NCBI GenBank assembly: GCA_900319695.1
Contig: ONPN01000014.1
Location: 27,790-91,789, forward strand
Length of the DNA: 64,000 nt
Direction of reading: 5' to 3'
DNA from: an uncultured Eubacteriales bacterium
GTDB lineage: Bacteria > Bacillota > Clostridia > Oscillospirales > Oscillospiraceae
The position numbers and the translations under genes are program-made. Positions 13,158-64,000 of this stretch are shown here, one piece after another. The notes beneath the pieces were generated by a model. It was not told the origin of the DNA. It was given only the letters and a program-made list of their open reading frames with translations, and ran no database searches. The stretch's first letter is position 1. Each line of letters begins with the position of its first letter.

Positions 13158-13167
13158 ATGCCGTTAT

Positions 13168-13206
13168 TGGGGCTTTTGCCGCCGGGCGATTCATGAATCG
13201 CCCCTA
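13168..13206. repeat. Half copy of the GCCCCTACGG palindromic repeat
   Basis: GCCGGGCGATtcatgAATCGCCCCTACGG matches the right-hand hairpin of the repeats at 730 and 10758. Only one hairpin unit is present. Confidence 0.5.
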
Positions 13207-13255
13207 CGGTTTCGGGCAGACATTGACAAAAAGTTGTGCCTTGCGCTGTGCTTCT

Positions 13256-14215
13256 TTATTGTTCTTCTTCCCATGTCCGCTCGCTGATGATGTAGCGGGG
13301 GCGCTGCTTGGTCTCCATGTAGATCTTGCCAATGTACTCTGCGATGATGCCGAGACAGATGAGCTGCACGCCGCTGACAAAGCAGATGATGCAGGTCATG
13401 CTGGCCCAACCCGCGACGGCCTTGCCGCAGAGCGCCGTGATCAGCGCCCAGATGCAGAAGATGAAGCTCACGGCGGCGATGATGAGACCGAGGCCGAAGA
13501 TCATGCGCAGGGGCTTGACCGAGAGGCTGGTCACTCCGTCCACCGCGAGGGCCAGCATTTTCTTCAGCGGATAGTGGCTCTCACCCGCGATGCGCTCAGC
13601 CCTCGAATAGCTGACGGACGTGGACTTGAAGCCGACCAGCGGGACCATGCCGCGCAGATAGAGGTTGACCTCCTTGAAATTGGCAAACTCCTTGAGGACG
13701 CGGGCGCTGATGAGGCGGTAGTCGGCGTGATTGAAGACCACCTCCGCGCCCATCATGGCGAGGAATTTATAAAAGCCCTCGGCGGTGAAGCGCTTGAAGA
13801 AGGTGTCCGTCTCGCGGCTGGAGCGCACGCCGTAGACCACCTCGCAGCCGTCGAGATAGGCGTCCACCATCTTGTCCATGGCGTTGATGTCGTCCTGACC
13901 GTCGCAGTCGATGGAGATGGTGATGTCGCACTTGTCGCGCGCCTCCATGAGCCCGGCCAGCACCGCGTTCTGGTGGCCGCGGTTGCGGCTCTGGCTGATG
14001 CCGATGTAGTGCTCGTCGTCTTTGGCGAGCATACGGATGATTTCCCAAGTGCGGTCACGGCTGCCGTCGTTGACAAAGAGGACGCGGCTGTCCTCGGTGA
14101 TTTTTCCGGCGGCGGCGAGATCCAGCAGCTTCTGGCGGAAGAGCGGCGCGGTGATGGGCAGAACCTCCTGCTCGTTATAGCAGGGGATGACGATAAACAG
14201 TCTCGGTGTTTTCAT
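13256..14215 (-). CDS. Glycosyltransferase family 2 with C-terminal membrane anchor
   Basis: GtrB/dolichol-phosphate-mannose-synthase-like enzyme of 319 residues. The GT-A fold starts VVIPCYNEQEVLP (written FIVIPCYNEQE here), and the metal/nucleotide-sugar motif is SIDCDGQDD near residue 100. Two hydrophobic helices occupy roughly residues 230-290. Relatives transfer a sugar from a nucleotide donor to undecaprenyl phosphate at the cytoplasmic face. It overlaps the next gene (14212) by 4 bp. That gene encodes a multi-spanning glycosyltransferase, which could use the lipid-linked sugar on the outer face. The sugar is unknown. Confidence 0.9.
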   Translation of the reverse strand: MKTPRLFIVIPCYNEQEVLPITAPLFRQKLLDLAAAGKITEDSRVLFVNDGSRDRTWEIIRMLAKDDEHYIGISQSRNRGHQNAVLAGLMEARDKCDITISIDCDGQDDINAMDKMVDAYLDGCEVVYGVRSSRETDTFFKRFTAEGFYKFLAMMGAEVVFNHADYRLISARVLKEFANFKEVNLYLRGMVPLVGFKSTSVSYSRAERIAGESHYPLKKMLALAVDGVTSLSVKPLRMIFGLGLIIAAVSFIFCIWALITALCGKAVAGWASMTCIICFVSGVQLICLGIIAEYIGKIYMETKQRPRYIISERTWEEEQ

Positions 14216-48293: not shown

Positions 48294-50315
48294 TCAAATT
48301 TCTGTAGGGAGCTCACCTGGATGCCACTGGTTCAGATGTTCCGAAGACGGCGGCAGGGGGAAAAACAGCGTCAGAATATTGCGGTCTTCCTTACGTTCAT
48401 AGCGCATGGAAGAGGCGCACCGGCGAATCAGATGCAGGCCCATGCCGCCGCCGTCCAGCCGTTCAAATTCCCTGTCTTCCAAAACGGCGGCAGTCTGGTC
48501 AAAGGGGACGCCGTTGTCGGAAAAGGCAACACGGAGTCGGTCGCCGTACGTTTTGCAGGAGTAGGCCAAAGTTGAGGCGCCGGAATATGATACGATATTC
48601 GCCAGCGCTTCATCACAGGCAAGCAGCGCCTGACGGGTCTCGTGGCTGTCCCCCACAGCGGCAAGGACGGCTCTCCTGACCGTGTCAAAGGCTGACAGCT
48701 CAACGGGCAGACTCCGCCATGTGCCCTCGCCCCCCCTGTATACCAGCGCCAGCACAGCCATATCGTCAAAGGCTTCGTTTCCGCCGCAGAAGTCGTCTAC
48801 CGCGCCGATTAAGCGGAGGACAGTCTCTTCCGCCGCGTTCTCCCCGGCGGAAAAAGCTCCGACCGCCTCCCGCAGTCTCTCTTCCCCGAAGAATTGCCGC
48901 TGGGGGCTCACGGCCTCGGTCACGCCGTCGGTGTAGAGCAGGATACCCTGACCCGGGGAAAGCGTATACGACGCATTTTTGAGCCCCGCATTCTCAAACA
49001 CACCGAGGGCGATCCCCGGCTCCGGGTTCAGAAAAGCGCATTTTTCCCGCAGCATCAGGGGCGGGTTGTGCCCGGCGTTGCAGTACAGCAGTTCTCCGGT
49101 CTTTGTATTCAGCACCGCGACAAAAGCCGTTGCGAACTGGTTCTCCGGATTCCGGGCGGCGATCTGGTCGTTGGTTCGGTTCAAGGTTTCCGCGGGGCTG
49201 AAGCCCGCCGTCAGTTTTTCCCGGATCACCGTTTTGACCATCGCCATGCTGATAGCGGCGCCGATTCCCTTTCCGGAAACGTCGCCCATGACGACGCAAA
49301 CCCTGCTGTCATCCAGCGAGAAGCAGTCATAAAAGTCTCCGCCCACCGTTTTTGCAGGCCGCGTTATGGCATTCACGCGCCAGCCGTCGCCGGAGCGCGT
49401 CGTCCTTTCCGGTACCAGAACACACTGAACCCGGCGTCCCAGCTCCAGTTGGGTATTGATTTCCGTCTCCTTCTGCGTCAGCTTTTCGATGCTGTTGACA
49501 TACGTGCTGATGTCGTCCGTCATTTTTTCAAAGGCTTCCGCGATCTCGCCGATTTCATCCCCTGATCGGAGCTTCAGCGGTTCCGGTTTTTTCCGGCTGT
49601 CAAGGGCAAACTGCCGCATCCCGTCAGACAGAATGCCGATGGGGCGGATAATCCGCCGCTGTACGAGGTACAGCAGGATCAGCAGCCCGACCAGAAGCGA
49701 CATTGAAAACGGAAGAATATCCCGCAGAAAATCCGTATGGATTTTGTTTTGAATCAGGCCAATATCACAGACCATGCTGATCAGGGCGATGGCGCTGCCG
49801 TTCAAATCGTTGACAGGGGAAACCCATATGATCTTGTCATCGGGGAGCTGATCGCCGGCCTCTATCTGCATTTCCCTGCTTCCGTTTATCAAGGCCTCTT
49901 CTCCCGGCAGAAGCTCTGTCGCCGGAATCGTCCGCAGGGCATACTCGCGCTGAAGCTCCTGGTTTTCCTCCAGAACAGGAGAAACGTAGAAATAATAATA
50001 GCGGGCGGGTACAGACGGATCGACGCGGTAGATCGACAGAGTGTCCAGCTTGTAGGTCTTGCACAGCCCACGCAGGGAATTGGCCGCGTCGTTGTAAGCC
50101 TTTGTCCCGACGGAACCGAGCACCTCGTCATTATTCCACTGATACACGAACAGGTTGGACGCAACATAGGCACAGGTTTCGGCCAGCTGCCCATAGTCCT
50201 CCATGATGTCATTGCTGTTTTCAAAATAGTTCGCCGCGGCAGACGCCGCCATGGACAGGATGAGAACGGCGGTGAAGCAAAGGATGATCCAGCGCCGGAT
50301 GGAATTCTTTTTCAT
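48294..50315 (-). CDS. Membrane PP2C (SpoIIE-type) phosphatase fused to an RsbW-like ATPase
   Basis: 673 residues from the ATG at 50315 (AAAGGAG upstream; earlier in-frame codons lack support). Order: TM helix (about 9-31), extracellular sensor (about 32-195), TM helix (about 198-222), HAMP, then a SpoIIE/RsbU-type PP2C domain with all metal Asp motifs (GGDFYDCF, GDVSGKGIGAA, YTDGVTEA, FDDMAVLAL), then a C-terminal GHKL ATPase (ACDEALANIVSYSG, FSDNGVPFD, GGGMGLHLI). It unites both opposing activities of a partner switch: phosphatase and serine kinase for a STAS protein. The STAS gene is directly upstream. No sigma factor gene is visible, so the output is unknown. Confidence 0.92.
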   Translation of the reverse strand: MKKNSIRRWIILCFTAVLILSMAASAAANYFENSNDIMEDYGQLAETCAYVASNLFVYQWNNDEVLGSVGTKAYNDAANSLRGLCKTYKLDTLSIYRVDPSVPARYYYFYVSPVLEENQELQREYALRTIPATELLPGEEALINGSREMQIEAGDQLPDDKIIWVSPVNDLNGSAIALISMVCDIGLIQNKIHTDFLRDILPFSMSLLVGLLILLYLVQRRIIRPIGILSDGMRQFALDSRKKPEPLKLRSGDEIGEIAEAFEKMTDDISTYVNSIEKLTQKETEINTQLELGRRVQCVLVPERTTRSGDGWRVNAITRPAKTVGGDFYDCFSLDDSRVCVVMGDVSGKGIGAAISMAMVKTVIREKLTAGFSPAETLNRTNDQIAARNPENQFATAFVAVLNTKTGELLYCNAGHNPPLMLREKCAFLNPEPGIALGVFENAGLKNASYTLSPGQGILLYTDGVTEAVSPQRQFFGEERLREAVGAFSAGENAAEETVLRLIGAVDDFCGGNEAFDDMAVLALVYRGGEGTWRSLPVELSAFDTVRRAVLAAVGDSHETRQALLACDEALANIVSYSGASTLAYSCKTYGDRLRVAFSDNGVPFDQTAAVLEDREFERLDGGGMGLHLIRRCASSMRYERKEDRNILTLFFPLPPSSEHLNQWHPGELPTEI

Positions 50316-50415: not shown

Positions 50416-50709
50416 TCAGGACTCGATGGAGAGCTTTTTGTCCAGCCCGGTCATATGCAGGACCGACGCGACCTCTGTGGACAGATTTTTCAGTATGAGG
50501 GCCCCGTTCATCTCTTTATAAGCCGTAACGATCTGACGGATACCGGCGGAAGAGATGTATTCCAGTTTTTCCATGTCGAGCACCAGCTTTTCGACACCGT
50601 CATCCAGCCCGTTCAGGGCCTCCGCCAGAACAGGCGCGTTCTGGGTGTCCAGCCAGCCCTCCAGGTGAAGCACCGCCGTGCTGCCGTCCATTGTTTTTTC
50701 AACGGTCAT
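50416..50709 (-). CDS. STAS-domain anti-sigma factor antagonist-like protein
   Basis: 97-residue single STAS domain (SpoIIAA/RsbV type). The phosphorylatable Ser lies in LEYISSAGIRQIV, about residue 54, after the conserved LDMEKL strand. RBS AAGGAG precedes the start. It lies between the NRPS genes and the phosphatase/ATPase gene, 92 bp from the NRPS stop codon; that gap holds a TATAAT-like box without a clear -35. It is the obvious substrate of the neighbouring kinase/phosphatase protein. Confidence 0.92.
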   Translation of the reverse strand: MTVEKTMDGSTAVLHLEGWLDTQNAPVLAEALNGLDDGVEKLVLDMEKLEYISSAGIRQIVTAYKEMNGALILKNLSTEVASVLHMTGLDKKLSIES

Positions 50710-50801: not shown

Positions 50802-53800
50802 TTAACGGGAGGAATTGACGATTTCCGGCACGATAATGTCCAGAGAAGGATCGTCCATCATCAGATCATGCTCATGCGGGGTATGGATGATCCGCAATTT
50901 GTCCCGGCAGCAGTAATGCTCAAAGTTACCCGCTTCAAACTCCATCATTTTTTCCCAGTATCGACGATTGTCGCCGGTGACGCCGGCCGGGATCGTGTCG
51001 GGCTTAAAATAGGTCACGCTGCCGTGGAACACCGACGGCCGGTGATTTTTCAGATCCTCAGCCACATGGGCGGCGTTCGTGACCATGGCCTCCAGCATGC
51101 CGCTGCGGCGCAGCTCGGCAAAGAGCGGGCTTGTCTCAAAATAGTTCCGGTTGGCCGAAGACAGCATGGCCTCTGACATTTTCCGCAGGCGCGCGCTGTC
51201 CAGGGCGTGGGAATCCAGCATGAACAGATGCCGCACTTCCTCCCCCGCCGCCTCCAGCTGACACGCCATCTCATGCGCCACGACGCCGCCGTAGCACCAG
51301 CCGCCCAGCAGATACGGTCCCTTGGGCTGCCGCTGTTTGAGAATACGGATATAGTTTGCCGCGATGTTTCGGATGCCGTAGACCGCCTCGTCGGGATGGT
51401 AGAGATTAAAGGGCTCAATCACCGAAAAGGACAGCGCGTCCCGGATGCGGTCTGCAAGGCGGTAATACGCCTCGCTGCCCGTGTTGCCGGTATGGACGAA
51501 GACGAGCTTCGGCCTGTCATTGTCCGAATAGACACAGATATCCGGCGGCATCCCCTCCCGAACCGGAAGGGTCTGCGCGGTGGGCGGTGCCGGACGTTCT
51601 TCTTCCGCCCCCAGGCTGAGAAGCGCGCGCCACTCCCGGATGGAAACATCATCGGGCCAGTGCTTCTCCAGCACACCCATCACCCGCGCAAGGCAGGCGC
51701 GCAGGCGCTGATCGTCCAGGGCAATGCTGTGGGCTGTCACGCAGAGGAAGTTTCTTTTATCCGTGCGAATGCCGAAAGCCCGGATCAGGCTTTCCCGCTG
51801 CAGATCGGCAGGCTCGTCGGAAATCTGGCTGCGCAGCCGGGCCATCTCGCCGCTTCCAAACTCGTCGGCCGAAAGCATCTCAAGCGGAATGCGGCGGTCC
51901 GTAATCACCTGCTGGACGACGGAGACATCGTGATAGACAACGGCCGCGCGCAGAACCTCATCCTCCTGCGCGGCGAAATCCAGCGCCTCGCGGAGCTGTT
52001 CCTCCGAAACCGGACTGTCCAGCTCCAGAAACCAGGTTTTCCGGAAATGGCTTCGATCCGGATGGAGAATCTGCATGAAAAGCATCTCGTCCTGCTCGGG
52101 AGAGAGGGGCAAGACCTTTTGGATGTGCTCACCCCGCGCGGCAAAATCCCTTCGTACCGCCGCGCGCTCTTCCGGTGTCCAGAGCTGTTCATACGAAACC
52201 TCGGCCGCTTCGGCGATTTTCCGAAGCACGTTCAGCTGAAGCACCTGGGCGCCGCTGACTTTGATGCCCTGTTCACGGAGCATCGCCGCGTACTTCATCG
52301 CGGTCAGCGAGGTTCCCCCGAGCTCGATGAAGCGGTCATCGGGGCCTATAAAGCCCGCCGGTTCGAGTACCTCCGCCGCTGTCATCACAATGCGGGAAAG
52401 CGCCTCGCTGTCCAGCACACCGCTGGTTTTATGGCGAAGCACCGGCTGCGGCAGTTCGGAGCGCATGATCTTTCCGTTTGCGTTTCGGGGCAGAGCGCTC
52501 ATGCGGACCCAGGTATCCGGAATCATGTATTCCGGCAGCCAGCGGGAAAGCTCCTCCGTCATCGGCCCCTTTTCCAGCTCCTTCTCCGCCTCATAATAAC
52601 AGCAGAGATGCTCCGCGCCGCACAGCGTTTTCACCGTGACAGCCGTCTGGCCCATGTCTTCCCGGCCGAGCTTTCTCGCCGCGCGCGCGACCTGCGTCTC
52701 GACCTCTCCGGTCTCGATGCGAAAGCCGCGGAGTTTGACCATATTGTCCGTCCGCCCCAGAAGCACCCAATCGCCCTCCGAGGTGCAGACAGCCCGGTCG
52801 CCGGTGCGGAACCAGCGCCTGCCGTCCTTGCTGATCCATTTTTCCCGGCTCAGCCCGGGCAGGCCGTAATACCGGCGCGCCATGAAGGGGCTGGAAATCA
52901 GAAGCTCCCCCGGCTCGCCGGGCGCGGGCGGATTTCCCGTCTCGTCTGTCAGCCGCACCTGCGTGTTCTTCCAATTTCGTCCGACCGAAATGACTTCCTC
53001 ATCGCCGAAGATTTTCTTTGACAGAACGCCGCTGAGCTCGGTGCTGCCGTAGCTGTTGATCAGGAAGCTGCCGGGGCAGAGCGGGCGGAAATTGCGCAGC
53101 TTTTCACCCGCCGCGAAGAGAAAACGACCGCGGATGTCGTAGTCCTCCGCCAGAATGGCGGCAAGCCCCGAGGGCAGGAAAATATGCGTGACGCGGTATT
53201 CCCGCAGAAACTGATCCAGCAGGGCGAGATCCCTGCGCGCCGCCTGCGGCGCGATGCAGACCGTACCGCCGTGCAGGAGCGGCCCCAGCAGGAACATCTG
53301 GGTTCCGACAAAGGAGAAGCTCGACATGGCGCCGGAGCGGGTGTCGGCGTTCATCGCCGCGTCCGGATGAACCTTGATCCAGTCGACAAGGTGAAGCAGC
53401 ATATTGTGGGTATGCAGCACGCCCTTGGGGTTGCCGGTGGTTCCGGAGGTGTAGAGCAGCATGGCCGGAGACGCAGGGGTAAGGCTTGGAGAGGTGGACG
53501 CGCCGGCGGCGGGCGATTCCTCATCCGCCCCGGTGTGCGCACCGCGGCAGACTTCATCCAGAAAAATGACTTTTTCAGCCGGAAAATCCGGCTTCTTTTT
53601 TTCCCAGAGTTCCCGCAGGGTCAGGATCGCTGCGGCTTCGGAATCACGCAGCATATACTGCAGGCGTTCCACGGGGTAGGCGTCGTCAAAGGGGACAAAG
53701 ACGCCGCCGGCGCGCAGCACGGAGACCGCCCCCAGCAGGATGTCCTTGGTATAGGGCACATAGACGGCCGCCCGATCGCCCGGTTTCAGCCCGCGCGCGG

Positions 53801-53933
53801 CAAGCATTTTTGCTGCGCGGGCGCTGCGCGCGTCCAATTCCCGATACGTTATCTCGCCCCGCTCATCAACCAAGGCGGGTTTCTCCGGGTTTTGCAGGGC
53901 ATAGTCGCGCACGCGCTCATGGATCAGCTTCAT
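50802..53933 (-). CDS. NRPS protein: A-T-(half C)-TE
   Basis: 1043 residues. Adenylation domain about 1-500 (LLYTSGTTGNPKGVL; A10 NANGKIMR). The position that normally holds Asp235, which grips the substrate amino group, aligns with Val (FSFVGTQM), so the substrate may not be an alpha-amino acid. Carrier domain with FIELGGTSLTAMKYA (Ser about 542). Then only the N-terminal lobe of a condensation domain (about 580-760), whose HHxxxDG motif is AHSIALDD. Last is a thioesterase (about 810-1043) with nucleophile GGWCYGG, Cys in place of Ser, and His in TPHEHDLMM. Begins 3 bp after the large NRPS. May load a starter or side unit, or act in trans. Confidence 0.92.
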   Translation of the reverse strand: MKLIHERVRDYALQNPEKPALVDERGEITYRELDARSARAAKMLAARGLKPGDRAAVYVPYTKDILLGAVSVLRAGGVFVPFDDAYPVERLQYMLRDSEAAAILTLRELWEKKKPDFPAEKVIFLDEVCRGAHTGADEESPAAGASTSPSLTPASPAMLLYTSGTTGNPKGVLHTHNMLLHLVDWIKVHPDAAMNADTRSGAMSSFSFVGTQMFLLGPLLHGGTVCIAPQAARRDLALLDQFLREYRVTHIFLPSGLAAILAEDYDIRGRFLFAAGEKLRNFRPLCPGSFLINSYGSTELSGVLSKKIFGDEEVISVGRNWKNTQVRLTDETGNPPAPGEPGELLISSPFMARRYYGLPGLSREKWISKDGRRWFRTGDRAVCTSEGDWVLLGRTDNMVKLRGFRIETGEVETQVARAARKLGREDMGQTAVTVKTLCGAEHLCCYYEAEKELEKGPMTEELSRWLPEYMIPDTWVRMSALPRNANGKIMRSELPQPVLRHKTSGVLDSEALSRIVMTAAEVLEPAGFIGPDDRFIELGGTSLTAMKYAAMLREQGIKVSGAQVLQLNVLRKIAEAAEVSYEQLWTPEERAAVRRDFAARGEHIQKVLPLSPEQDEMLFMQILHPDRSHFRKTWFLELDSPVSEEQLREALDFAAQEDEVLRAAVVYHDVSVVQQVITDRRIPLEMLSADEFGSGEMARLRSQISDEPADLQRESLIRAFGIRTDKRNFLCVTAHSIALDDQRLRACLARVMGVLEKHWPDDVSIREWRALLSLGAEEERPAPPTAQTLPVREGMPPDICVYSDNDRPKLVFVHTGNTGSEAYYRLADRIRDALSFSVIEPFNLYHPDEAVYGIRNIAANYIRILKQRQPKGPYLLGGWCYGGVVAHEMACQLEAAGEEVRHLFMLDSHALDSARLRKMSEAMLSSANRNYFETSPLFAELRRSGMLEAMVTNAAHVAEDLKNHRPSVFHGSVTYFKPDTIPAGVTGDNRRYWEKMMEFEAGNFEHYCCRDKLRIIHTPHEHDLMMDDPSLDIIVPEIVNSSR

Positions 53934-53936
53934 CTG

Positions 53937-56900
53937 TCATACCTCACCGAAAAAGCCTTTTTGTTCGAGCCGGGACAGGAACTGCCGGATATACGCGCTC
54001 CCCGTCTCGGCATAGGCCGCCCCGAGCCGTCCGAGCACACGGGCAGTATAGCTGCCGTCGCAGCCCTCCAGGCCGATTCCACTGCCGCTGTCGCCGGTGT
54101 TGTAGGCTGCAAGACAGCTGACGGCCTCCATCGTTTTTTCATCAGTCAGCGCCTTTTGCAGCGCAGCGGCAAGCTCATCATTCTCCACGCCCCGAACCGG
54201 GTGGCCCATCTCCTCCAGCACCCGCATAATATCGCCCATCAGCGGCCTGTGCGGATTCAGAAGCATGAAGCAGACGCAGTCGTCCGGCGTACCGGCCAGC
54301 GACAGCACAGCGCGGGCGGCGCAGTCGATGGGAGAGAACTCGGTCGGCTCACTGAGACTGTCGAAGGGGATCATGCCCAGGGTCTCAAAAGCGCGGATGG
54401 TATTCATGAAATTATTGGTCGTGTAGTTGAGCTGGAATTCCCCGTCCGCCGCGCGCGGGGCCAGGTTTGCCATGCGGCATACCTTCGCCCGCAGGCCGCG
54501 CTCCAGAATCGCCTCGTACACGGTGCGCTCGGCCATGAACTTTGACCAGACATAGCGGTTGTTTTCCAGCTCCTGCCCGGCATAGAGTCCGTGTTCATCC
54601 AGACGCCAGGATTCGGGCGGCAGGCCGTTTTTCCTCTCCCCTGCCACGCTGCAGGTTGAGATGTGAACAAGGCGGGCTCCGTTTTGCACGCACCAGTCGA
54701 TCAGGCTGCGCACGGAATCGACGTTGGCGTGTTCCAGTTCGCCGGGTCTGGCAAAGTGTTTGACGCTGGCCGCGCAGTTGATGACCGTCATGTCCGCCGA
54801 GGGCGCTTTATAAGCGCTGATCGCTGTGCCGTCTGCAGCGTCACCCTCGACGACGATGATACGGGAACCGAAGAGCTCTGCGTATTCCTCGCCGAAGTAG
54901 GCGCGCAGGGTCTCCTTCAGACGCTCTTCCCCGCTTTTTTCCTTTCCGGGGCGGATGAAGCAGAAGACGCGGTTATCATGGTGGACGATCAGCTCGTGCA
55001 GTACATAGCTGCCGAGGTAGCCCGTCCCGCCGAGCAGCAGTACGTCGTTCAGTGAAAGCCGCTCGCCGCTACGGAAGGCCGCCATGGTATTTTTCGACAG
55101 CAGCGCGTGAATGCCGCGGTAATCATAACCGTCCGGGCCGGTCTCGGGAAGGGCAGCGGCTGCGGATTCGTCTGCGGGCGGCATCTCCTCCGCCCCGCCC
55201 CGTGCGGACGTGCCGTCTTCCCCGGTCTGCCCGAGGAAGGCCGCCATGTCCCTCGGCGTCGTATGGGAGAACACGTCGTTATAGACGATATGATACCCCG
55301 CTTTTTCGGCGGCGATGACCACCTTCATGGCGAGGATGGAATTGCCCCCCACCTCGAAGAAATCATCCTCGGCGCTCACGCGGTCAAGACCGAGAACCTC
55401 GGCAAAGACGGCGCAGAAATCCTTTTCCGTCTTCCCCTTCGGTTCTACAAAGGCGGCCTTCTGGAGCTTCGGCTCCGGCAGGGCCTTTTTGTCCACCTTC
55501 TGGTTGACGGTGAGGGGGATTTTCTCAAGCTGCATGATCACCGCGGGCACCATATAGGCGGGCTTCTGCGTCCGGATATAGTCGGCTAAAAGCGCGGTGT
55601 CAAGGGCGGTGTCGCTGACCACGAAGGCCGCCAGATATTTGCCGCCGCCTTCGTAATCATAGGCCTGGACCGTCACGTCGCGAATACCGGCATAGCCCCG
55701 GATGACTGCCTCGACCTCTTTGGTTTCGATGCGGAAGCCGCGGATCTTGACCTGTCCGTCCCGGCGTCCGACAAATTCCACGTCGCCGTTGGGACGGTAG
55801 CGGACAATATCCCCCGTATGGTACATCCGGAAATCGTCGAAGGGAGACGCTTCGTAGGCCTCCGCCGTTTTATCGGGGCGGTTGAGATAGCCCCGGCTCA
55901 CCTGGGGGCCGGAGAGGCAGTATTCGCCGGCCGCGCCCGCGGGAAGCCTGTGCCCGGTCTTGTCCAGTACATAGCCGTGGATGGTGTGCATCGGCTTTCC
56001 GATGGGAATATTCACTTCCCATTCCCGAATGGGGAACAGACTCACGCCGCAGCAGTTCTCCGTCGGGCCGTAGCCGTTGACGATCGTATAGCTGAGCTTG
56101 GAGGGGTCCACCGCGGGGAGCTTCTCACCGCCCATGACCAGCATACGCAGGGTTTTCAGGCGGGGATAATTCAGCAGGAACTGGACGCCGACCTGCGTGG
56201 TCAGTAGCAGGGCGGAAACCTCCGCCTCGTCAAAGGTCGCCGCCAGCGCCCCGAGATCCATGCGCGTTTCTTCCGGGATCAGCACGAGCGTGCCGCCGTT
56301 GAGCAGGGTGCAGAACACATCGGACATGTTGACGTCGAAGCCGAAGGAGGCGTAGGCGGCAATCCGGTCCTCGCGCGTATAGAAATCATTTCGCACGCCG
56401 TGTGCGTAAGCCACCAGATTTCGGTGCTCGATCTGGCAGCCCTTGGGGGTGCCGGTGGAGCCGGAGGTGTAGAGCAGAATGAACAGGTCTTCCGGCTTCG
56501 GGCCCGCGGGAACGGGCGGAGCCTCCTCCATATCATGGAGCTCCTGCACGGTCAGCACCGGGCCCTGATACTCGTTCACCAGGCCGCAGAGATCGTCCTC
56601 GACAAGGAGTAGGCAGATCCCCGCGTCCTTCACCATGAAATTCAGACGCTCGGCAGGATAGCCGGGATCGAGCGGCTCATAGGCCAGCCCCGCCTTGACC
56701 GCGGCCAGAGGCAGGAGGAATACGTTCTCGTCCCGGTGAATCAGGATCGCAACCGTCTCTTCCGCAAGCCGCGTCTTTCCGGTCAGCTCGCAGACCTTTC
56801 GGTAGAGCTTCGCAGCCAGCCGGTCGGTCAGCTCGTCCAGCTCCCGGTAGGTCCAGGATCTGTCCCGGAAAACCGCAGCCGTCTTCTCCGGCTGCATGCT

Positions 56901-59900
56901 GACATTGCGCTTGAAGACGGACACCGCGGTATCCCCGGTGTCAAAGTCCAGATCCCAGGGGCCGTTGAAGCTGTCCAGAACCGCCCACTGCCTGGCATCG
57001 GTGAGGCTGATATCGCTCAGGACCTCACAGCGCAGCAGACCGCGGACGGCGTTCTCGATGCTCTCGCCGAGGCCGGTCATCATCTCTGCGCTGTAAAGCG
57101 CCGTGTCATAGGTCACGGTGATCCGGGCTTCCTCCTCCGTACCGTCCACGGATACGGAGATGGGGATCTTGGCTATGTCGAGTGCGAGGCTCTCCACCTG
57201 CACGTCTCCGCGTTTTGTGCGGTATTCGTTCAGCACGCCGATCTGATAGGCGTAAGAGAGGGAGGGATGGAAGTCGTACTTCGCCGCGATACGCGCGAAG
57301 GGATAGTTTTCGTGGTCGATCGTGTCGGAGAAGTCCTTCGCGACGCGGCGCAGGAAGTCCTCCGTTTTTTCCGTTTTATCCAGCGTCGTCACAACAGGCA
57401 GGGTATTGACGAACATGCCCATGGTATCCGAGAGCTTGAGGTTGCTGCGCCCGCCGGAGATCGTGGCGATGGCCGCTGTATCCTCGCACACATAGCGGCC
57501 GAAGGTGAGCTGGGCCGCCGCAAGATACACCGCGGCCGGCGTCACGGACAGCTTTCTGGCCCGCTCCTTCACCGCAGCGATGTCGGTGGGGACGCTGACG
57601 AGCTTTTCACTGTGCGGAAGACTCTCGTCATACACGTCGGGAATCAGTCTGGTAGCCTCCTCCGCCGACGCCATGCGCTGCTCGAAAAAGCGCTCCGTCT
57701 CGGGGTCGATCGTCTCCTCGGCGGCGAAGTCATAATAGCTGTAGCTCTCCTGCTCGGGCGTCTGGCCGTCCAGCGCCCCGCAAAGCTGACTGACGAAGAG
57801 ATCCATGGAGGCCCCGTCGCAGACCAGGTGGTGCATATCCGCCAGCAGGTACAGCGCATCCGCGCGGACGATCTCAAAGCGGACGGCCGGGCCTCGCTCC
57901 AGGTCGAAGGGGCGTACAAATTCACGTGTGTGTTTCTCAAATTCATCGGGAGACATGCGGCTGACCGGAATCTCAAGGCGGCAGTCTGGGATCGGCTCCT
58001 GGACGATCTCATTCTTTTCGTCCGGGACAAAGCGGCAGAGTATATAGGGATGCGCTTCTACTACTTTGCGGACAGCGTTTTCCAGCTCCTCCTCTGTGGT
58101 TCCGTCGGGGAGGCGCAACATGGAAGGAATGTTGTACTGTACGCTGTCGGGCTTTGCCTGTACCTCGGCGTACACCCCCTGCTGGCTGAAGCTGAGCCGG
58201 GCGGAACGCCGGGGCGCCTGTTCGGGCGCTTCGTTCTTCCCGTTGTTGTGTGCCTCTGCCTCCGACGCGGGCGCGTCTTTCTTCTTGAGCAGCACGCGGA
58301 GGATCTCGTTTTCCACGCTCTGCAGACTCTGCTCGGACAGCGTGCGCACATCCAGCTGAATCCCATACTGCTTGTTCAAAAACACAGCCAGGCGGATCCC
58401 GGCCAGCGAGTTCAGCCCCAGATCGCCGAAACGGTCCGTAAGCCCAAAATCCGAGGTGTGGAGAAGCTCGGAGAGGGTCTGCTTCAATTCTTCCTCCAGC
58501 AGGTTCAGCGGCGCGGCGGAGCCGACTGTACCGGCGCTTTTCGCTTTTTTCTCCGGTTTCGGCAGCGCCCGCCTGTTGACTTTCCCGTTCTGGGTCAGCG
58601 GGATCTGCTCCAGCTGCATGGTGATCGCGGGAACCATGTACGGGGGTTTGCGTTCCCGGATAAAATCGTTCAGCGCGTCAATATCCACTTCGCTGTCCGA
58701 AACCACATAGGCGGCAATATATTTCTCCCCGGTTGCCTCATCCTCGAAGGCATGTACGGTCGCGTCCCGAATACCGGGAAATTCACGGATGACGCCCTCC
58801 ACCTCGGTCAGCTCAATCCGGAAACCGCGGACCTTTACCTGGCCGTCGTTGCGGCCGATAAAATCATAGCTGCCGTTCGGGAGAAGGCGCACCACATCGC
58901 CCGTGCGGTAGGCGCGGGCATAATCCGGCTCGTCAGAGAAGGGATTTTTGATGAACGCCTTTTCCGTCAGGTCTGGCCGGTTCAGATAACCGCGGCCCAC
59001 ACCCCGGCCGGCGATCAGCAATTCGCCCGGCACCAGCGGCGGCAGGCGATTCATGTTTTCGTCCGCTATATACATTTTGATGTTCGGAAGCGCTTTGCCC
59101 ACGGGAATGCGGTCATAGAGCCGGTCGACAGGCTGCATGCAGCAGGTCACCGTGCATTCCGACGGTCCGTAGCCGTTGTAGAGGGTCGGGCCGTCCGCGA
59201 TCGGCTCAACAGGGACGAGCTTTTCGCCCCCCGCAGTCAGGCACCGGAGACTCGGCACCTTCGTGCTTGTGTAAAACTGGCGCGCGACCTGGGTGGTCAT
59301 GATGGAATGGGTGATGCCGTGGCGCTTGAACCAGGCCTCCATCGCCAGCAGATCCAGGCGGATTTCCTCCTCTATAATATACACGCAGCCGCCGTGGGTC
59401 AGCGCGGGCCAGGTGTCCAGCAGGGTTGCGTCAAAGCCGAAGCTGGCATAGGTGGCGGAGTGGGTGTTTTCGTCAATACCGTAGCTGTCACAGGCCATAT
59501 ACGCGAGATTGCAGAGGTTGCGGTGCTCCAGGATCACGCCCTTGGGCACGCCGGTGGAGCCGGAGGTGTAGAGCAGGACAAACATGTCCTCCGGGTCAGG
59601 ATGATCGCACAGCTTCTCACAGGCGGGCAGCGCGGGGATGTCCTGCGTCTTCAGCACCGGGCCTTTATAGTCCGACACGATCTCCATCAGCGTCTCGTCG
59701 GCGATCAGGAGCCTGCAGTCGGCGTCCTTCATCATGAAGGCCAGTCTCTCGGGCGGGTAGCTGGGGTCCAGGGGCTGATAGGCCGCGCCGGCTTTCAGCA
59801 CGCCCAGCGGGGCAATCGTCATCCATTCGCAGCGGGGAATGAGGATGGAGACGACGTCTCCCTTCCCGATCCCGCGGGAGCGCAGATACCCGGCTATACG

Positions 59901-61310
59901 CTCCGAGATTTCGTCCACCTCGCGGTAGGTATAGACCTTGTCCTTGAAGACGACCGCGTTGCTGTCCGCGTACTTCTCCGCCGCATCCCGCCACATGGAC
60001 ACAATATCCCGGACGGGATAATCCGCCTGGGTAGCGTTGAAGCGGTCGAGCTCCGCCTCGGTATCCGCCGTCAGCAGGAGAATGTCGCCGAAGGTCTCCT
60101 TATTTATAAACTCCTTTGCGATCTGCTCATAGCAGCGGGCAAAGATCTCCATGCTCTCCCGCTCAAACAGATCCGTCCGCCAGAAAATCCGCAGCCTGCA
60201 GGCATCGCCGCTGGTGTGCACTTCGACCGCAATATCGGCCTTGGCGTCATCGCATTCGATATTTTCCATGGCGATTCTTCCATCCAGGAATTCCTTCTCC
60301 CCCTTCAGTCCGCCCTGATAGATGAACATTGTGGGAATGGAAAGGTCAAAGGCGGAGCAAATATCCGTGTAGGAAAACAGGTCGTTCTCCCTGCTTTTCC
60401 GGATCTGCTCGTCCAGCTGTTTCAGATGCTCCCGGATGCTGTCCGTGCGCGCAAAGCGCTCCAGCACCGGGAAGGTCTTCACAAACATGCCGATGGTATT
60501 CATGGTCTCGGGGGTGCGTCCGTGATAAACGGAAGCGTACAGCGCCTCCCCGGCGCCGCTGAAGCGGCTGAGCAGATAACCGTAAACGCCGGTGAAAAAG
60601 CTGCCGGTACGGATTCCCGCGTCCTTCACAAACGCGGACACCTCTTCAAAGCTGAGATCGAGCCGGCGATCCAGCCAGGCACATTTCCATGTTTCTCCCT
60701 CATGGTCATGGAATGGCTCGCTGACGGTCTCTTCACCGTCCAGCAAATCACTGTACCATTTCTTTGCCGCCGCAAACTCGTCTGTGCCGCGCAGCTTCTG
60801 CTCCTGTATGGCAAAGTCGGCGGCGGAGAGCGTTTCTCCCACGGGGGATAGTCCATGGTAAGCGCGAGTCAGCTCGCTGAGAAAGACCTCCTCGCTGTGT
60901 CCGTCAAACAGAATGTGGTGAATATCGCTGAAGAGCCATGCCTGTTCCTCTCCCTGAATGATCTGAAAACGGTAAAGCTCGTCCTCCGGATCCGAAAACG
61001 GCCGGATCAGCGCGTTCAGATCGGGTTCTCCCCGGCTCTCCGAAATCGTAACCGGCAGCTCCTCCCGCGCCCCGGTCGGCGTCCTGCGCACGACGTCTCC
61101 GTCCTCTCCCGGCGCGAAGCGGGAAAGGATCCCGGGATGGGCCCGCACTGTCTCCGTCAGGGCCTCGCGCAGCTTTACGAGATCCGTTCCCTGCGGAAGC
61201 GGAAAGAGCCAGGGAATATTATAGGCTGTCCCCTGCAGATTTTTGGTCCAGTCCAGATAGATCCCCAGCTCGGTCATTGAAAGTGGTGAACTGCTCCAGT
61301 TTGTACCCAT
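53937..61310 (-). CDS. NRPS protein: C-A-T-C-A-T-reductase
   Basis: 2457 residues. C1 about 1-420 (HHILFDG), A1 430-920 (LLYTSGSTGVPKGV), T1 near 967 (DLGLNSLAG), C2 1050-1470 (MHHLVCDG), A2 1490-1940 (LLYTSGSTGTPKGC), T2 near 1990 (FEVGGNSILAMK), and a terminal reductase 2085-2457 with NAD(P)H loop LLGGTGYLGSYVL, Thr in STCSVAG and Y-x-x-x-K in RYVWSKF. Two modules plus reductive release predict a dipeptide aldehyde, which can cyclise to a pyrazinone. A leading C domain suggests an N-acyl or upstream-supplied starter. By alignment to GrsA, pocket residues read D,A,L,I,L,A,G,V,T (A1) and D,V,S,L,L,M,G,C,G (A2); both keep Asp235. No tailoring enzymes or PPTase are nearby. Confidence 0.95.
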   Translation of the reverse strand: MGTNWSSSPLSMTELGIYLDWTKNLQGTAYNIPWLFPLPQGTDLVKLREALTETVRAHPGILSRFAPGEDGDVVRRTPTGAREELPVTISESRGEPDLNALIRPFSDPEDELYRFQIIQGEEQAWLFSDIHHILFDGHSEEVFLSELTRAYHGLSPVGETLSAADFAIQEQKLRGTDEFAAAKKWYSDLLDGEETVSEPFHDHEGETWKCAWLDRRLDLSFEEVSAFVKDAGIRTGSFFTGVYGYLLSRFSGAGEALYASVYHGRTPETMNTIGMFVKTFPVLERFARTDSIREHLKQLDEQIRKSRENDLFSYTDICSAFDLSIPTMFIYQGGLKGEKEFLDGRIAMENIECDDAKADIAVEVHTSGDACRLRIFWRTDLFERESMEIFARCYEQIAKEFINKETFGDILLLTADTEAELDRFNATQADYPVRDIVSMWRDAAEKYADSNAVVFKDKVYTYREVDEISERIAGYLRSRGIGKGDVVSILIPRCEWMTIAPLGVLKAGAAYQPLDPSYPPERLAFMMKDADCRLLIADETLMEIVSDYKGPVLKTQDIPALPACEKLCDHPDPEDMFVLLYTSGSTGVPKGVILEHRNLCNLAYMACDSYGIDENTHSATYASFGFDATLLDTWPALTHGGCVYIIEEEIRLDLLAMEAWFKRHGITHSIMTTQVARQFYTSTKVPSLRCLTAGGEKLVPVEPIADGPTLYNGYGPSECTVTCCMQPVDRLYDRIPVGKALPNIKMYIADENMNRLPPLVPGELLIAGRGVGRGYLNRPDLTEKAFIKNPFSDEPDYARAYRTGDVVRLLPNGSYDFIGRNDGQVKVRGFRIELTEVEGVIREFPGIRDATVHAFEDEATGEKYIAAYVVSDSEVDIDALNDFIRERKPPYMVPAITMQLEQIPLTQNGKVNRRALPKPEKKAKSAGTVGSAAPLNLLEEELKQTLSELLHTSDFGLTDRFGDLGLNSLAGIRLAVFLNKQYGIQLDVRTLSEQSLQSVENEILRVLLKKKDAPASEAEAHNNGKNEAPEQAPRRSARLSFSQQGVYAEVQAKPDSVQYNIPSMLRLPDGTTEEELENAVRKVVEAHPYILCRFVPDEKNEIVQEPIPDCRLEIPVSRMSPDEFEKHTREFVRPFDLERGPAVRFEIVRADALYLLADMHHLVCDGASMDLFVSQLCGALDGQTPEQESYSYYDFAAEETIDPETERFFEQRMASAEEATRLIPDVYDESLPHSEKLVSVPTDIAAVKERARKLSVTPAAVYLAAAQLTFGRYVCEDTAAIATISGGRSNLKLSDTMGMFVNTLPVVTTLDKTEKTEDFLRRVAKDFSDTIDHENYPFARIAAKYDFHPSLSYAYQIGVLNEYRTKRGDVQVESLALDIAKIPISVSVDGTEEEARITVTYDTALYSAEMMTGLGESIENAVRGLLRCEVLSDISLTDARQWAVLDSFNGPWDLDFDTGDTAVSVFKRNVSMQPEKTAAVFRDRSWTYRELDELTDRLAAKLYRKVCELTGKTRLAEETVAILIHRDENVFLLPLAAVKAGLAYEPLDPGYPAERLNFMVKDAGICLLLVEDDLCGLVNEYQGPVLTVQELHDMEEAPPVPAGPKPEDLFILLYTSGSTGTPKGCQIEHRNLVAYAHGVRNDFYTREDRIAAYASFGFDVNMSDVFCTLLNGGTLVLIPEETRMDLGALAATFDEAEVSALLLTTQVGVQFLLNYPRLKTLRMLVMGGEKLPAVDPSKLSYTIVNGYGPTENCCGVSLFPIREWEVNIPIGKPMHTIHGYVLDKTGHRLPAGAAGEYCLSGPQVSRGYLNRPDKTAEAYEASPFDDFRMYHTGDIVRYRPNGDVEFVGRRDGQVKIRGFRIETKEVEAVIRGYAGIRDVTVQAYDYEGGGKYLAAFVVSDTALDTALLADYIRTQKPAYMVPAVIMQLEKIPLTVNQKVDKKALPEPKLQKAAFVEPKGKTEKDFCAVFAEVLGLDRVSAEDDFFEVGGNSILAMKVVIAAEKAGYHIVYNDVFSHTTPRDMAAFLGQTGEDGTSARGGAEEMPPADESAAAALPETGPDGYDYRGIHALLSKNTMAAFRSGERLSLNDVLLLGGTGYLGSYVLHELIVHHDNRVFCFIRPGKEKSGEERLKETLRAYFGEEYAELFGSRIIVVEGDAADGTAISAYKAPSADMTVINCAASVKHFARPGELEHANVDSVRSLIDWCVQNGARLVHISTCSVAGERKNGLPPESWRLDEHGLYAGQELENNRYVWSKFMAERTVYEAILERGLRAKVCRMANLAPRAADGEFQLNYTTNNFMNTIRAFETLGMIPFDSLSEPTEFSPIDCAARAVLSLAGTPDDCVCFMLLNPHRPLMGDIMRVLEEMGHPVRGVENDELAAALQKALTDEKTMEAVSCLAAYNTGDSGSGIGLEGCDGSYTARVLGRLGAAYAETGSAYIRQFLSRLEQKGFFGEV

Positions 61311-61345
61311 GTCATGACTCTCCTTTCACGGCCGACAATGGCCTG

Positions 61346-61503
61346 ATACTGTTTTTCGTTAAACCGGTTCGTTTTACCGAAAAGGCATCGCACAAAGCGC
61401 GCTGCCAGTTTTGTGCCCCTGGGCACAAAACACGTCTCATAGGTCTCCGCCGCGCCTTTGGCGCTATAAAACGGCTTTAAGCCGTTTTATGGGATGCCAG
61501 TAT
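61346..61503 (+). repeat. Element II, copy 3, in the NRPS leader
   Basis: Reverse-orientation copy of 31996-32173: ATACTGTTTTTCGTTAAACC, a GTTTTGTGCCCctGGGCACAAAAC hairpin, CACGTCTCATAGGTCTCC, GCGCCtttGGCGC, ATAAAACGGCtttaaGCCGTTTTAT and CCAGTAT. It lies between the promoter at 61526 and the NRPS start, so it is transcribed as 5' leader. It keeps an empty TTAA at 61359-61362. Confidence 0.65.
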
Positions 61504-61525
61504 GAGTATGAATTATGAACAGTCT

Positions 61526-61554
61526 TTGATATAATTATTGTAGCACAGTGTCAA
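61526..61554 (-). promoter_or_regulatory. Promoter of the NRPS operon
   Basis: Minus strand TTGACA (61549-61554), 17 bp, TATCAA (61526-61531). It would give a leader of about 210 bases that includes element II copy 3. Confidence 0.6.
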
Positions 61555-61945
61555 AATGCTTGTCTATTCATTTTTCCGTCTTCCGATCCTTTTCTGCTTC
61601 TGCTGTTTGCCTTTTATCGAAAAAGAAAGGCGCTGTCCTGAAATCCCGTAACCAGCGGGGCCGCAGAACGGCGCTTTTCTTTTAAATATTTGGTTAACGA
61701 TAAGGAAATTGAGGAAAGAGGATTGCCTCAGAACCGTCCATGATTTTTGCCCGGAGTGATTCCGCTTGCAGAATCACTCCGGGCAGTATGTATTATATGT
61801 GCTTGACAACATCGATAGAAACAAGAAATCCGAACGCCGTCCTCATTGGAACGAAGTTCGGATTTCTCAATTGTGTCTAATCCGTACACTAAAGATGCCA
61901 ATTAGTCGCACAGAAATCATGTATATAATCATGCAAGCATGTAAA
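61555..61945. other. Gap with hairpins between NRPS and tRNA-like gene
   Basis: No gene seen in 390 bp. Hairpins: GCCCGGAGTGATTC / GAATCACTCCGGGC (61749-61784) and AGAAATCCGAAC / GTTCGGATTTCT (61824-61867). Near 61620-61680, AAAAGAAAGGCGC faces GCGCTTTTCTTTT as a weak, widely spaced pair. AT content is higher than in the neighbouring genes, typical of an insertion boundary. Confidence 0.5.
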
Positions 61946-62018
61946 AAACGTGTGGGGGATTTGAACCCCCGTCTACCTCTTAGTCATGGAGGTACTCTAT
62001 CCGCTGAGCTAACACGGC
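61946..62018 (-). tRNA. tRNA-like gene, probably degenerate
   Basis: 73 bases with a complete cloverleaf frame: acceptor GCCGTGT, D-arm GCTC...GAGT, anticodon arm CCTCC-ATGACTA-AGAGG, T-arm GGGGG-TTCAAAT-CCCCC. Problems: the last acceptor pairs are lost (3' end ACACGTT instead of ACACGGC), the anticodon stem has a C-A mismatch next to the loop, and position 37 is T. By position the anticodon would be GAC (Val). No CCA is encoded. Likely a remnant at an integration site, since a broken integrase follows. Confidence 0.6.
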
Positions 62019-62064
62019 TTAAAGCAATAGTATTTTAACAAATATCAGCTAAAAGTCAAGAACG

Positions 62065-62094
62065 AAAAACGACGTGTCGAAACACGTCGTTTTT
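62065..62094. terminator. Hairpin with A/T runs upstream of the integrase remnant
   Basis: Perfect 13-bp stem AAAAACGACGTGT / ACACGTCGTTTTT with CGAA loop, a bidirectional terminator. Confidence 0.75.
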
Positions 62095-62124
62095 CATTGT
62101 CTAACGTACACCCCTATTGCCCAG

Positions 62125-62469
62125 CGAAACAAGCAGACGCTTATGATGCTGGATGCGGGGAAGGATTGGGAAAACAACAATCTGATTATCACAAATCCAA
62201 CTGGAGGTTATCTGTCATACAGAACAGTATATGATTGCTTCAAGCGAGTGGTGGCAAAATTAGGTTTTCCCAATACCCGCTTTCACGATCTGCGACATAC
62301 CTACGCGGTCGTTGCGATCAAGAGCGGCGACGACATATAAACCGTGCAGGAGAACCTTGGCCATGCGACTGCTGCATTTACTCTGGATATTTATGGACAT
62401 GTCACAGACCAGATGAAACATGCCAGTGCTGACAGGATGGAGGCGTTCATACATGCCGTTTCGTGTTGA
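62125..62469 (+). pseudogene. Tyrosine recombinase/integrase, C-terminal remnant
   Basis: The C-terminal catalytic half of a phage/ICE-type integrase. Visible are NPTGGYLSYRTVYDCFKRVV, box II FHDLRHTYA (His and Arg), then NLGHA and the nucleophile Tyr in LDIYGHVTD. A TAA at 62338-62340 interrupts the frame between GDDI and TVQENLGHA, where active relatives have Lys or Gln. The N-terminal DNA-binding and first catalytic Arg region are missing. Non-functional, but it marks this end as an old integrated element next to a tRNA-like gene. Confidence 0.85.
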
Positions 62470-62800
62470 TCTGTCCCGGCTTTCGTTAATCTCTAAAGGC
62501 TAAAAATAAGTAAAACTCGGCCTTCTACGAAAACCGAGAAAACTTTTAGAGGTGAAAGCAGACCAATTTCAAGGAAAAATAAAAAGAATCTGCATCTTTC
62601 GATGCAGATTCTTTGGTGGACGATACAAGACTCGAAAGGCTAAAAGCTATTCCATTTGTACAAAAATATAGTTAAATTGTGTTATTTCGTATTGGAATCT
62701 GCAAATTTTGTTACATTGTTTCTATTGCGTTTTTCTCTGCCCAAGCTGTCAAGGGTCAAAATATGGGTCAAACTCAGACCGAAAAGAAGGAGAAATGCAA
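62470..62800. other. Gap with terminator and tRNA 3'-end fragment
   Basis: 331 bp without a convincing gene. Perfect stem AAAGAATCTGCATC / GATGCAGATTCTTT (62583-62614). Bases 62615-62636 (GGTGGACGATACAAGACTCGAA) read on the minus strand as the T-loop and acceptor 3' end of a tRNA of the Val(GAC) type, the usual core of an attachment site. AT-rich beyond 62640. Confidence 0.45.
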
Positions 62801-63190
62801 ATGAAAACCATCTTTGAAGAAATGGGAGGAAGTTACAATGAGGTCAACGGATATCTGATTCCGAACCTTGTGATTCAGGAAAGTGAGCCCATCGGCAAGT
62901 ACGGATGCATGAGAAGGCAGTATCTGAAGGAACAGCATCCGATCATCTTCTCGGAGCTTTTGCTGTCCGAGCAGCTCTATCCCCATCTGGTTGAGATCGA
63001 CCGCGCCTGCCACGGACGCATGGAATTGCTAATCAGGCAAATGGCAGCGCAGGAAGGTGTGACTGAGGCATTGAAGGCTGCCGATCAGATAGAGTGGATC
63101 AGGCGGATGAACAGCATCCAGAATCGTGCCGAAGAAATCGTTTTGAACGAGCTGGTCTACCTTGAGGAGGCGCCGGATGATGATACTTGA
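62801..63190 (+). CDS. TnpV-like transposon-encoded protein
   Basis: 129 residues from the ATG at 62801, 8 bp after GAAGGAG; the ATG at 62795 is too close to that site. The sequence MKTIFEEMGGSYNEVNGYLIPNL, then QYLKEQHPIIFSELLLSEQL and a C-terminal helix MNSIQNRAEEIVLNELVY match TnpV, an accessory protein of Tn4451-type mobilisable transposons in Clostridia whose role is not settled. No recombinase of such a transposon is intact here. Overlaps the next gene. Confidence 0.82.
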   Translation: MKTIFEEMGGSYNEVNGYLIPNLVIQESEPIGKYGCMRRQYLKEQHPIIFSELLLSEQLYPHLVEIDRACHGRMELLIRQMAAQEGVTEALKAADQIEWIRRMNSIQNRAEEIVLNELVYLEEAPDDDT

Positions 63191-63458
63191 AGACCTTTAT
63201 TTGGGAGATGTGCATCCCAGTGAGCGCAGCTTCAAGCGCAACAGCCAGTATGCCAGGGCATTGCACGAAGTCATTGAGGCGAACGATGCTCTGAACGAAA
63301 CGCTTGACGATGAACAGTCGGAGCTGTTTGAGGAATTCATGACAGCACAGCGGGAAGTCAATGTGCTGACAGACTGTGAGACGTTCTGCTATGCCTTCAA
63401 GCTCGGCGCAAGAATCATGCTGGACGTGCTGACTGAGGGAGAAATGAAAGAAATCTGA
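63177..63458 (+). CDS. DUF6809-like small protein
   Basis: 93 residues from the ATG at 63177 (GAGGAGG about 6 bp upstream), overlapping the TnpV-like gene by 14 bp. The start MMILEDLYLGDVHPSERSF and the C-terminus FCYAFKLGARIMLDVL resemble a family of helical proteins often found in Clostridial mobile elements. Function unknown. The family name is from memory of this pattern and should be checked. Confidence 0.7.
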   Translation: MMILEDLYLGDVHPSERSFKRNSQYARALHEVIEANDALNETLDDEQSELFEEFMTAQREVNVLTDCETFCYAFKLGARIMLDVLTEGEMKEI

Positions 63459-63583
63459 GTCACGCTTTAACCCAAACAGGGAATATAAAATCATACTCCT
63501 TATCGAATAGGCGCTCGGAAGTCGTTGAAACATGCGGCTTTTCGAGCGCCTAAATGCGTAGAAAGCATACCAGCCGGTAAGGC

Positions 63584-63934
63584 TTATGCTTTGTACTGTT
63601 TACATGCAGATTCAAGAAGCAGGAAATCATTGCATCGTTTAGCCAAAGCTGTGGAATTGCCGTTTTCCACTTTATGTTTGTATACGAGCTGGGCGTTCTT
63701 TCTGATTTTCTCCTGCATAGCTTTGATGGCTCTGTACTCTGCAAGGAGGAGCGACTTATATTTTTGATTCCGCTCCTTGGAAATATCTACATATTCAGCA
63801 AGCCCGGCAGGAACCGGAAACATGTTGTTGATATTTATAACGGCGTAGTTCTTGATTTTGATGAAATCCAACGCTTCCTGCATGTGGGCATGTTTCGGTT
63901 TAAACGTAAGCGCACAATTAGCACCCGCCTACCA
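63584..63934 (-). pseudogene. ToxN/AbiQ-type toxin remnant
   Basis: C-terminal two thirds of a type III toxin (RNA-antitoxin-controlled endoribonuclease). Diagnostic stretches: KPKHAHM, LDFIKIKNYAVININNMFPVP, KYKSLLLAEYRAI and KVENGNSTALAKRCNDFLLLE. An open start exists at 63883 (99 residues), but homologous-looking coding continues upstream to about 63934 (ALTFKPKHAHM) where a TAG closes the frame, so the N-terminal 60 or so residues are lost. An imperfect hairpin at 63970-63998 lies upstream, where these loci place a terminator after the antitoxin RNA repeats; the repeats, if any, would be beyond the window. Confidence 0.72.
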
Positions 63935-64000
63935 AGTGACCCATATTTATGAGACAATATCCGGAGAACTCGAGAAACTGCCGGTGAGTTTTTCGAGAAA

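Follow-up and report, generated by a model that had tools for sequence, protein, structure and literature searches.

What does a second, smaller enzyme contribute behind a non-ribosomal peptide synthetase (NRPS) that carries its own terminal reductase? The question is raised by a 64,000-nucleotide stretch (the window) from an uncultured Eubacteriales bacterium (contig ONPN01000014.1), in which a large NRPS, P0001, is followed by a partner protein, P0002. The window forms the end of a contig of 91,789 bases, and the source genome is 79% complete. A preliminary description had read P0001 as two condensation (C)–adenylation (A)–carrier (T) modules with a terminal reductase (R), of the human-gut type whose dipeptide aldehydes turn into pyrazinones, and P0002 as a protein of A, T and thioesterase (TE) domains. 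The observation was confirmed and its interpretation partly supported. P0002 is an A-T-halfC-TE protein and, among the reductase lines that we fetched from other genomes, it is tied to one terminal-A code, a tie that is new here. The reductase-ended line is of a sort common in its habitat; the tied partner enzyme is the new part.

Anatomy of the line and of its partner

Both open reading frames (ORFs) lay exactly where they had first been placed, at 53937-61310 and 50802-53933 on the minus strand, with P0001 ending at 53937 and P0002 starting at 53933. Pfam returned two Condensation, two AMP-binding, two PP-binding and one NAD_binding_4 match on the 2457-aa P0001, and its translation contains LLGGTGYLGSYVL, STCSVAG and RYVWSKF (the cofactor motif and the T-Y-K residues), in agreement with the C-A-T-C-A-T-R architecture first described. 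In having two modules and an NAD(P)H reductase at its end, P0001 shows the domain content of the reductase-terminated dipeptide-aldehyde NRPS kind. In a sequence search against solved structures, R matched 6vtj (204 bits), the R domain of AusA (106 bits) and MxaA (80 bits), which supports reductive release from a two-module line; 6vtj, recorded only as a non-ribosomal peptide synthetase, we take to be the PCP-R (carrier–reductase) portion of an NRPS from the rumen methanogen M. ruminantium. AusA (NF047350) was also the top NCBIfam family for P0001, at 1159.7 bits, short of the 2500-bit cut-off, so that P0001 is not AusA by that rule. It resembles AusA in its two modules, its terminal reductase and the solved AusA R domain, and differs in opening with an extra C domain, the AusA order presumably being A-T-C-A-T-R. 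The A2 pocket code looked about equally like the Trp and Pro codes and, as in the preliminary description, gave no confident amino-acid call.

P0002 departs from a direct A-T-TE joining. Between T and TE lies a Condensation match to Pfam profile positions 2-143 of 456, a conserved half-C of ~190 aa; this half-C, the cysteine of the TE and the absence of Asp235 from the A domain had all been missed. We aligned 12 P0002 sequences including the window's (one incomplete; identities to the window copy 49-97%). The A-domain core motifs, Ser542, Cys880 and Asp907 were invariant in all 12, and His1020 was kept in all 11 that extend to the C-terminus. The HHxxxDG motif of the half-C was lost in 12/12 (L052 retains HH, not DG; L-numbers denote fetched loci and G-numbers genomes), and the half-C was rejected as a working C domain on that ground. 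Position 235 of the A domain was V, I, M or S in all 12 and never Asp, in GrsA numbering, the window residue agreeing by alignment to LgrA. Because Asp235 is missing, we weakly predict that the A domain loads a carboxylic acid rather than an alpha-amino acid. Elsewhere in the A-domain tree, Asp235 was also missing from A domains that open other lines. The nearest of these, from L041, joined the P0002 clade at a support of only 0.497, and the remainder fell on an adjacent branch; how close that branch lies depends on midpoint rooting. Four proteins of the genus (L109, L111, L117 and L120; ~1000 aa, A then C) likewise have A domains without Asp235 (VAIFFGIFAK and similar) and are perhaps stand-alone acid-loading modules.

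An AlphaFold model of the half-C and TE had a mean pLDDT (predicted local distance difference test) of 81.6, while the full-length model was poor (65.6). The helix and strand order of the former read as the N-terminal half of a condensation domain followed by a TE. Since Foldseek of this model gave mainly TE domains among the 50 matches listed, the half-C fold is read from the sequence match and the predicted helix and strand order. In a tree of N-terminal halves, 10 half-C rows formed one clade (0.999) within the DCL type (0.974), adjoining Bacteroidales C domains that follow E-like domains (0.893); this placement could be accounted for by a T-C-A-T-TE ancestor that lost part of its sequence in frame. 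The nearest solved TEs by sequence were AB3403 (4zxh) and NocB TE (6ojc), which also headed the fold search. The AB3403 alignment shows GGWCFGG, with Cys at the position of Cys880, and that of NocB TE shows Ser; AB3403 is, unlike P0002, a four-domain synthetase ending in TE.

Against the copy in genome G068, the ratio of non-synonymous to synonymous substitution rates (dN/dS) was 0.16 for P0001 (last 1844 residues only) and 0.16 for the whole of P0002, with 0.235 for the half-C and 0.024 for the TE (12 silent changes and 1 replacement; change counts are small). These values indicate purifying selection on P0002. That the two ORFs arose by chance is made unlikely by their length (2457 and 1043 aa), their orthologs in other genomes and the dN/dS of 0.16.

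A scan of named genomes for P0002 gave 12 loci. Eight of the 12 have a ruminant in their titles (goat rumen, goat duodenum, water-buffalo rumen, sheep abomasum, red deer), another two belong to the RUG isolates, a rumen set, and two (L048, L054) have no stated source. The human-gut framing of the preliminary description thus fits poorly, most named relatives being ruminant-derived by title. The relatives are metagenome-assembled genomes (MAGs) labelled by their depositors as Ruminococcaceae, Lachnospiraceae, Oscillospiraceae, Clostridia, Eubacterium, Prevotella or Bacteroidales, and the spread over two phyla is as good as those labels. Full-length P0002 occurred in three other genomes of the genus (149 searched; 97, 64 and 49% identity). 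Two of 394 genomes sampled from the order matched, our own in full and another by a partial TE match. Among 298 genomes around the Prevotella-labelled G487, 12 matched a half-C/TE model, two of them in full (G487 and G565). Partial matches in other Bacteroidales were tried as further half-Cs and rejected, the fetched ones being ordinary full C domains that mostly follow E-like domains. On plasmids, 2452 records matched P0002 and none reached at least 60% identity (26-33% among the 10 matches listed).

Some of these loci carry further features. L088 (8752-10566, genome G489) holds a second, more divergent A-T-halfC-TE copy cut at the contig end. L054 (825-21881, a MAG labelled uncultured Prevotella) has two reductase-ended NRPSs flanking P0002 and a MatE gene, and its second line has a different A code and no P0002. 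In L049 a phosphopantetheinyl transferase gene (13154-13816) directly follows the P0002 relative; the source genome has one PF01648 match, a 229-aa frame on another contig than P0001, possibly an Sfp-type phosphopantetheinyl transferase.

A tie to one terminal-A code

We searched the A2-T2-R block of P0001 against 102 genomes of the genus and the 298 genomes around G487, fetched up to 30 of the best-scoring loci per search, determined the code of the final A domain in every reductase line and inspected the sequence downstream (47 rows; comparison lines counted only with >1.2 kb of visible downstream sequence). A P0002-type A domain lay at most 90 bases away in 13/13 distinct reductase-ended NRPSs with the code DV[SA]L[VIT][GA]G[CA]GK and followed 0/28 fetched reductase lines with other terminal-A codes. 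Searches that did not use P0002 gave 4/4 code-matching lines (G068, G087, G001 and G565) against 0/27 others. Each of the 13 R domains linked to a partner retained the GxTGxLG, STxS and YxxSKF motifs, and the modules upstream of the terminal block varied (C-A-T, A-T-C-A-T, or C-A-T-C-A-T split over two genes). In a mirror-tree comparison, P0002 and A2-T2-R co-diverged (r 0.939, 13 loci, 0/5000 permutations). Among the reductase lines fetched, the second enzyme is retained by one subfamily and dispensed with by the others.

A predicted acyl-dipeptide aldehyde and a possible part for P0002

C1 is the first domain of the line, with nothing before it in the assembled sequence. Upstream there are ~600 bases, a tRNA-Val and, 2.7 kb away, the contig end at 64000, with no NRPS module in the assembled sequence; nor does the visible upstream sequence of the same kind of line in L048, L053 and L097 carry an NRPS gene. 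Across the source genome, at its stated completeness, PF00668 gave three matches, all within P0001 and P0002. A third, upstream module was accordingly dropped from consideration, as none is in the visible sequence. We also built trees from the C domains extracted out of the fetched loci. In the larger (75 rows), seven N-terminal C domains of reductase lines (from the window, L037, L048, L051, L053, the second line of L054, and L097) formed one clade without internal C domains. C1 stood outside the internal C2-type clade, and was set aside as a canonical LCL or DCL domain because it lay outside the Bacillus/Paenibacillus reference clades of both types. The preliminary description had named C1 among internal LCL domains together with a third module upstream as what would overturn it, and neither was found.

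C1 is likely to be an acyl-accepting starter domain, as judged from its position and its clade. Formation of a pyrazinone requires a free N-terminal amine, while C1 implies N-acylation; with no upstream module visible and C1 in an N-terminal clade, an N-acylated dipeptide aldehyde is likelier than the pyrazinone first proposed. We therefore set the pyrazinone aside as main product, although it could still form if C1 is idle.

We hold it a little better than an even chance that the locus encodes a two-module acyl-dipeptide-aldehyde line with an active, acid-loading partner of A2-T2-R. C1 would accept an acyl starter, A1-T1 and then C2-A2-T2 would add two amino acids, and R would use NAD(P)H to release the chain, yielding an N-acyl dipeptide aldehyde or possibly an alcohol. 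Such an aldehyde would be a likely protease inhibitor that does not easily close to a pyrazinone. P0002 would belong to the terminal A2-T2-R module as an active partner: its A domain would load a carboxylic acid onto its own T domain, the half-C would serve as a dead scaffold, and the Cys-TE would transfer the acid, most probably to the chain end freed by reduction, or alternatively let it go as an acyl product of its own. Our leading guess, held with low confidence, is that P0002 acts at the released end, because the terminal A2-T2-R block is the constant partner. A two-enzyme release, in which R frees the aldehyde or alcohol and P0002 attaches a carboxylic acid at this end or on its side chain, is a tentative proposal that we expect more readily to fail than to hold. 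If true, it would define a class of capped pro-inhibitors, with a dead half-C as structural adaptor, common to rumen Clostridia and Prevotella; we know of no description of such a class so far. Should P0002 alter the reactive end, predictions based on the reductase line alone would miss the true product in this subfamily. The half-C would also be a natural case of the N-terminal half of a condensation domain retained without catalysis.

Several results weigh against this interpretation. The 13 linked lines comprise the window, eight found through P0002 or picked as the centre of a P0002 search, and four others; those four (G068, G087, G001 and G565) were all also met in P0002-based searches, and the tie was counted among best-scoring lines, with weaker lines outside the count. 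The A-T module preceding the terminal block co-diverges with P0002 too (r 0.898, 7 loci), so the mirror-tree does not single out the terminal module, and the tie may reflect mere descent as one block. On the side of C1, the clade of N-terminal C domains that favours a starter role has weak support (Shimodaira–Hasegawa-like approximate likelihood ratio test, SH-aLRT, 59), 4/11 N-terminal C domains were placed elsewhere (L042, L090, L094 and L096), and the one characterised lipo-starter reference at hand, a fragment of ppsA recognised by its neighbouring genes, was not grouped with C1.

Descent as one block would suit an ordinary gut dipeptide-aldehyde/pyrazinone NRPS with P0002 as a passenger of no special role, as would the co-divergence of the preceding module and the fact that lines ending in a reductase are no rarity (7 among the loci of the genus; 30/30 fetched Prevotella-centred loci end in R). 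We consider this unlikely: the active-site residues of P0002 are kept over 49-97% identity and in MAGs labelled as two phyla, at a dN/dS of 0.16, and a pyrazinone would need the free amine. More credible, if still doubtful, is that P0002 is a loading module, activating a starter acid whose acyl group C1 takes in trans, the TE only clearing misloaded chains. It would be in keeping with the N-terminal place of C1, with an operon in which no other acyl source was seen, and with the lack of Asp235 in several first-position A domains elsewhere (not firmly grouped with that of P0002 by the tree). P0002 also stands behind A-first lines that have no C1, however (L052, L054 and G001/L038, the first A domain of L038 being split over two frames), which excludes the loading of C1 as its general function.

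A housekeeping or proofreading factor, which hydrolyses stalled chains or re-activates peptide acids from oxidised aldehyde, seems about as improbable as the passenger. An A domain without Asp235 would suit an N-acylated (peptide) acid, and the TE is of type I with NocB and AB3403 as nearest solved relatives, but the 28 fetched reductase lines with other codes manage without P0002. Lower still we place a separate A-T-TE synthetase that condenses aryl alpha-keto acids, giving the operon two products. The fungal quinone/furanone synthetases share the order A, T, TE and an acid-activating A domain (predicted for P0002, from the missing Asp235) and condense two aromatic alpha-keto acids (available parts of PMC9047271 and PMC10316625). 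The same parts describe no condensation remnant and no tie to a reductase line, and do not give the TE nucleophile. The half-C insert of P0002 is conserved and under selection, and a tie to one terminal-A code would be unexpected for an independent product.

Known systems and the surrounding genes

By the descriptions in reviews, the predicted product class of P0001, a dipeptide aldehyde acting as a protease inhibitor, is that of a human-gut NRPS family of 47 clusters (Guo et al. 2017) and of ruminopeptin (rup, R. bromii) (accessible portions of PMC8210680, PMC12282076 and PMC12327764). In those portions, gut dipeptide aldehydes inhibit proteases and an N-acyl tail is stabilising. The window differs in its mostly ruminant-titled relatives (8/12) and in its tied A-T-halfC-TE protein. 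For the rumen, a survey counted 5,346 NRPS clusters and remarked on similarity between those of archaea and those of Firmicutes (PMC8241843, in part). Nothing like an A-T-halfC-TE partner appeared in the literature searched, which covered truncated C domains with a TE, NRPS thioesterases with a Cys nucleophile, and A-T-TE enzymes; most subscription journals lay outside it, and this is no proof of absence.

A close known system is mru0068 of M. ruminantium, a rumen NRPS of two modules, each C-A-T (PMC2812497, in part). Its terminal domain is a thioester reductase in the legend of Figure S8 and a thioesterase in the text, and it is surrounded by two serine phosphatases, an anti-sigma-factor antagonist and an adjacent MatE gene (PMC2812497). 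P0002 is followed on the same strand by a STAS gene and a HAMP-SpoIIE-HATPase fusion (Table 1), so that the window shares phosphatase and STAS neighbours with mru0068, and this kind of neighbourhood is already in print. The two differ in host, that of mru0068 being an archaeon, and in MatE, with none among the scanned window neighbours, the upstream end lying beyond the contig. No A-T-halfC-TE partner is described in the available text of PMC2812497.

Table 1 Features of the locus in window coordinates.
Feature	Position	Strand	Basis or remark
NRPS P0001 (C1-A1-T1-C2-A2-T2-R, 2457 aa)	53937..61310	-	ORF and Pfam
C1, N-terminal condensation domain, HHILFDG	60021..61310	-	C-domain trees
Segment between C1 and T1 of P0001	58530..60020	-	Pfam
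T1 carrier domain	58275..58478	-	Pfam PP-binding in two stretches; limits hand-set
C2, internal condensation domain, HHLVCDG	56952..58232	-	Pfam
A2, pocket code DVSLVGGCGK	55446..56939	-	Same or close code in partner-linked lines
T2 carrier domain	55227..55433	-	Pfam
R, terminal NAD(P)H reductase; GGTGYLG, STCSV, YVWSKF	53940..55133	-	Pfam, structure match, motifs
Partner P0002 (A-T-halfC-TE, 1043 aa)	50802..53933	-	ORF, Pfam and alignment
P0002 A domain, code VGMFFASGVK, without Asp235	52434..53933	-	Alignment, pocket code, A tree
P0002 T domain, LGGTSL, Ser542 kept	52194..52400	-	Pfam and alignment
P0002 half-C, N-terminal half of DCL-type C domain, without HHxxxDG	51564..52139	-	Pfam, model, tree
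P0002 TE, GGWCYGG (Cys880), Asp907, His1020	50805..51551	-	Pfam and alignment
STAS anti-sigma-factor antagonist	50416..50709	-	Pfam; downstream of P0002
HAMP-SpoIIE phosphatase-HATPase fusion (RsbU/RsbW-like)	48294..50315 (about)	-	Pfam; start is an internal ATG
tRNA-Val	61945..62019	-	Upstream of the NRPS

A SpoIIE-phosphatase/HATPase-type protein, often with STAS, recurred beside NRPS lines (the window, L037, L039, L042, L043, L046, L048, L052 and L056), including lines without P0002 (L042, L043) and one Bacteroidales-labelled locus (L052). At the other end of the window, G+C content fell to 0.49 in 60001-64000, compared with 0.57-0.66 in the other 4-kb bins. This low-G+C segment adjoins the tRNA-Val, an ORF at 62708-63190 (+) matching phrog_24764 and, near the contig end, a 99-aa ORF at 63584-63883 (-) that matches the C-terminal part (profile 59-159 of 159) of ToxN, a type III toxin-antitoxin family. 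The segment is possibly the remnant of a mobile element.
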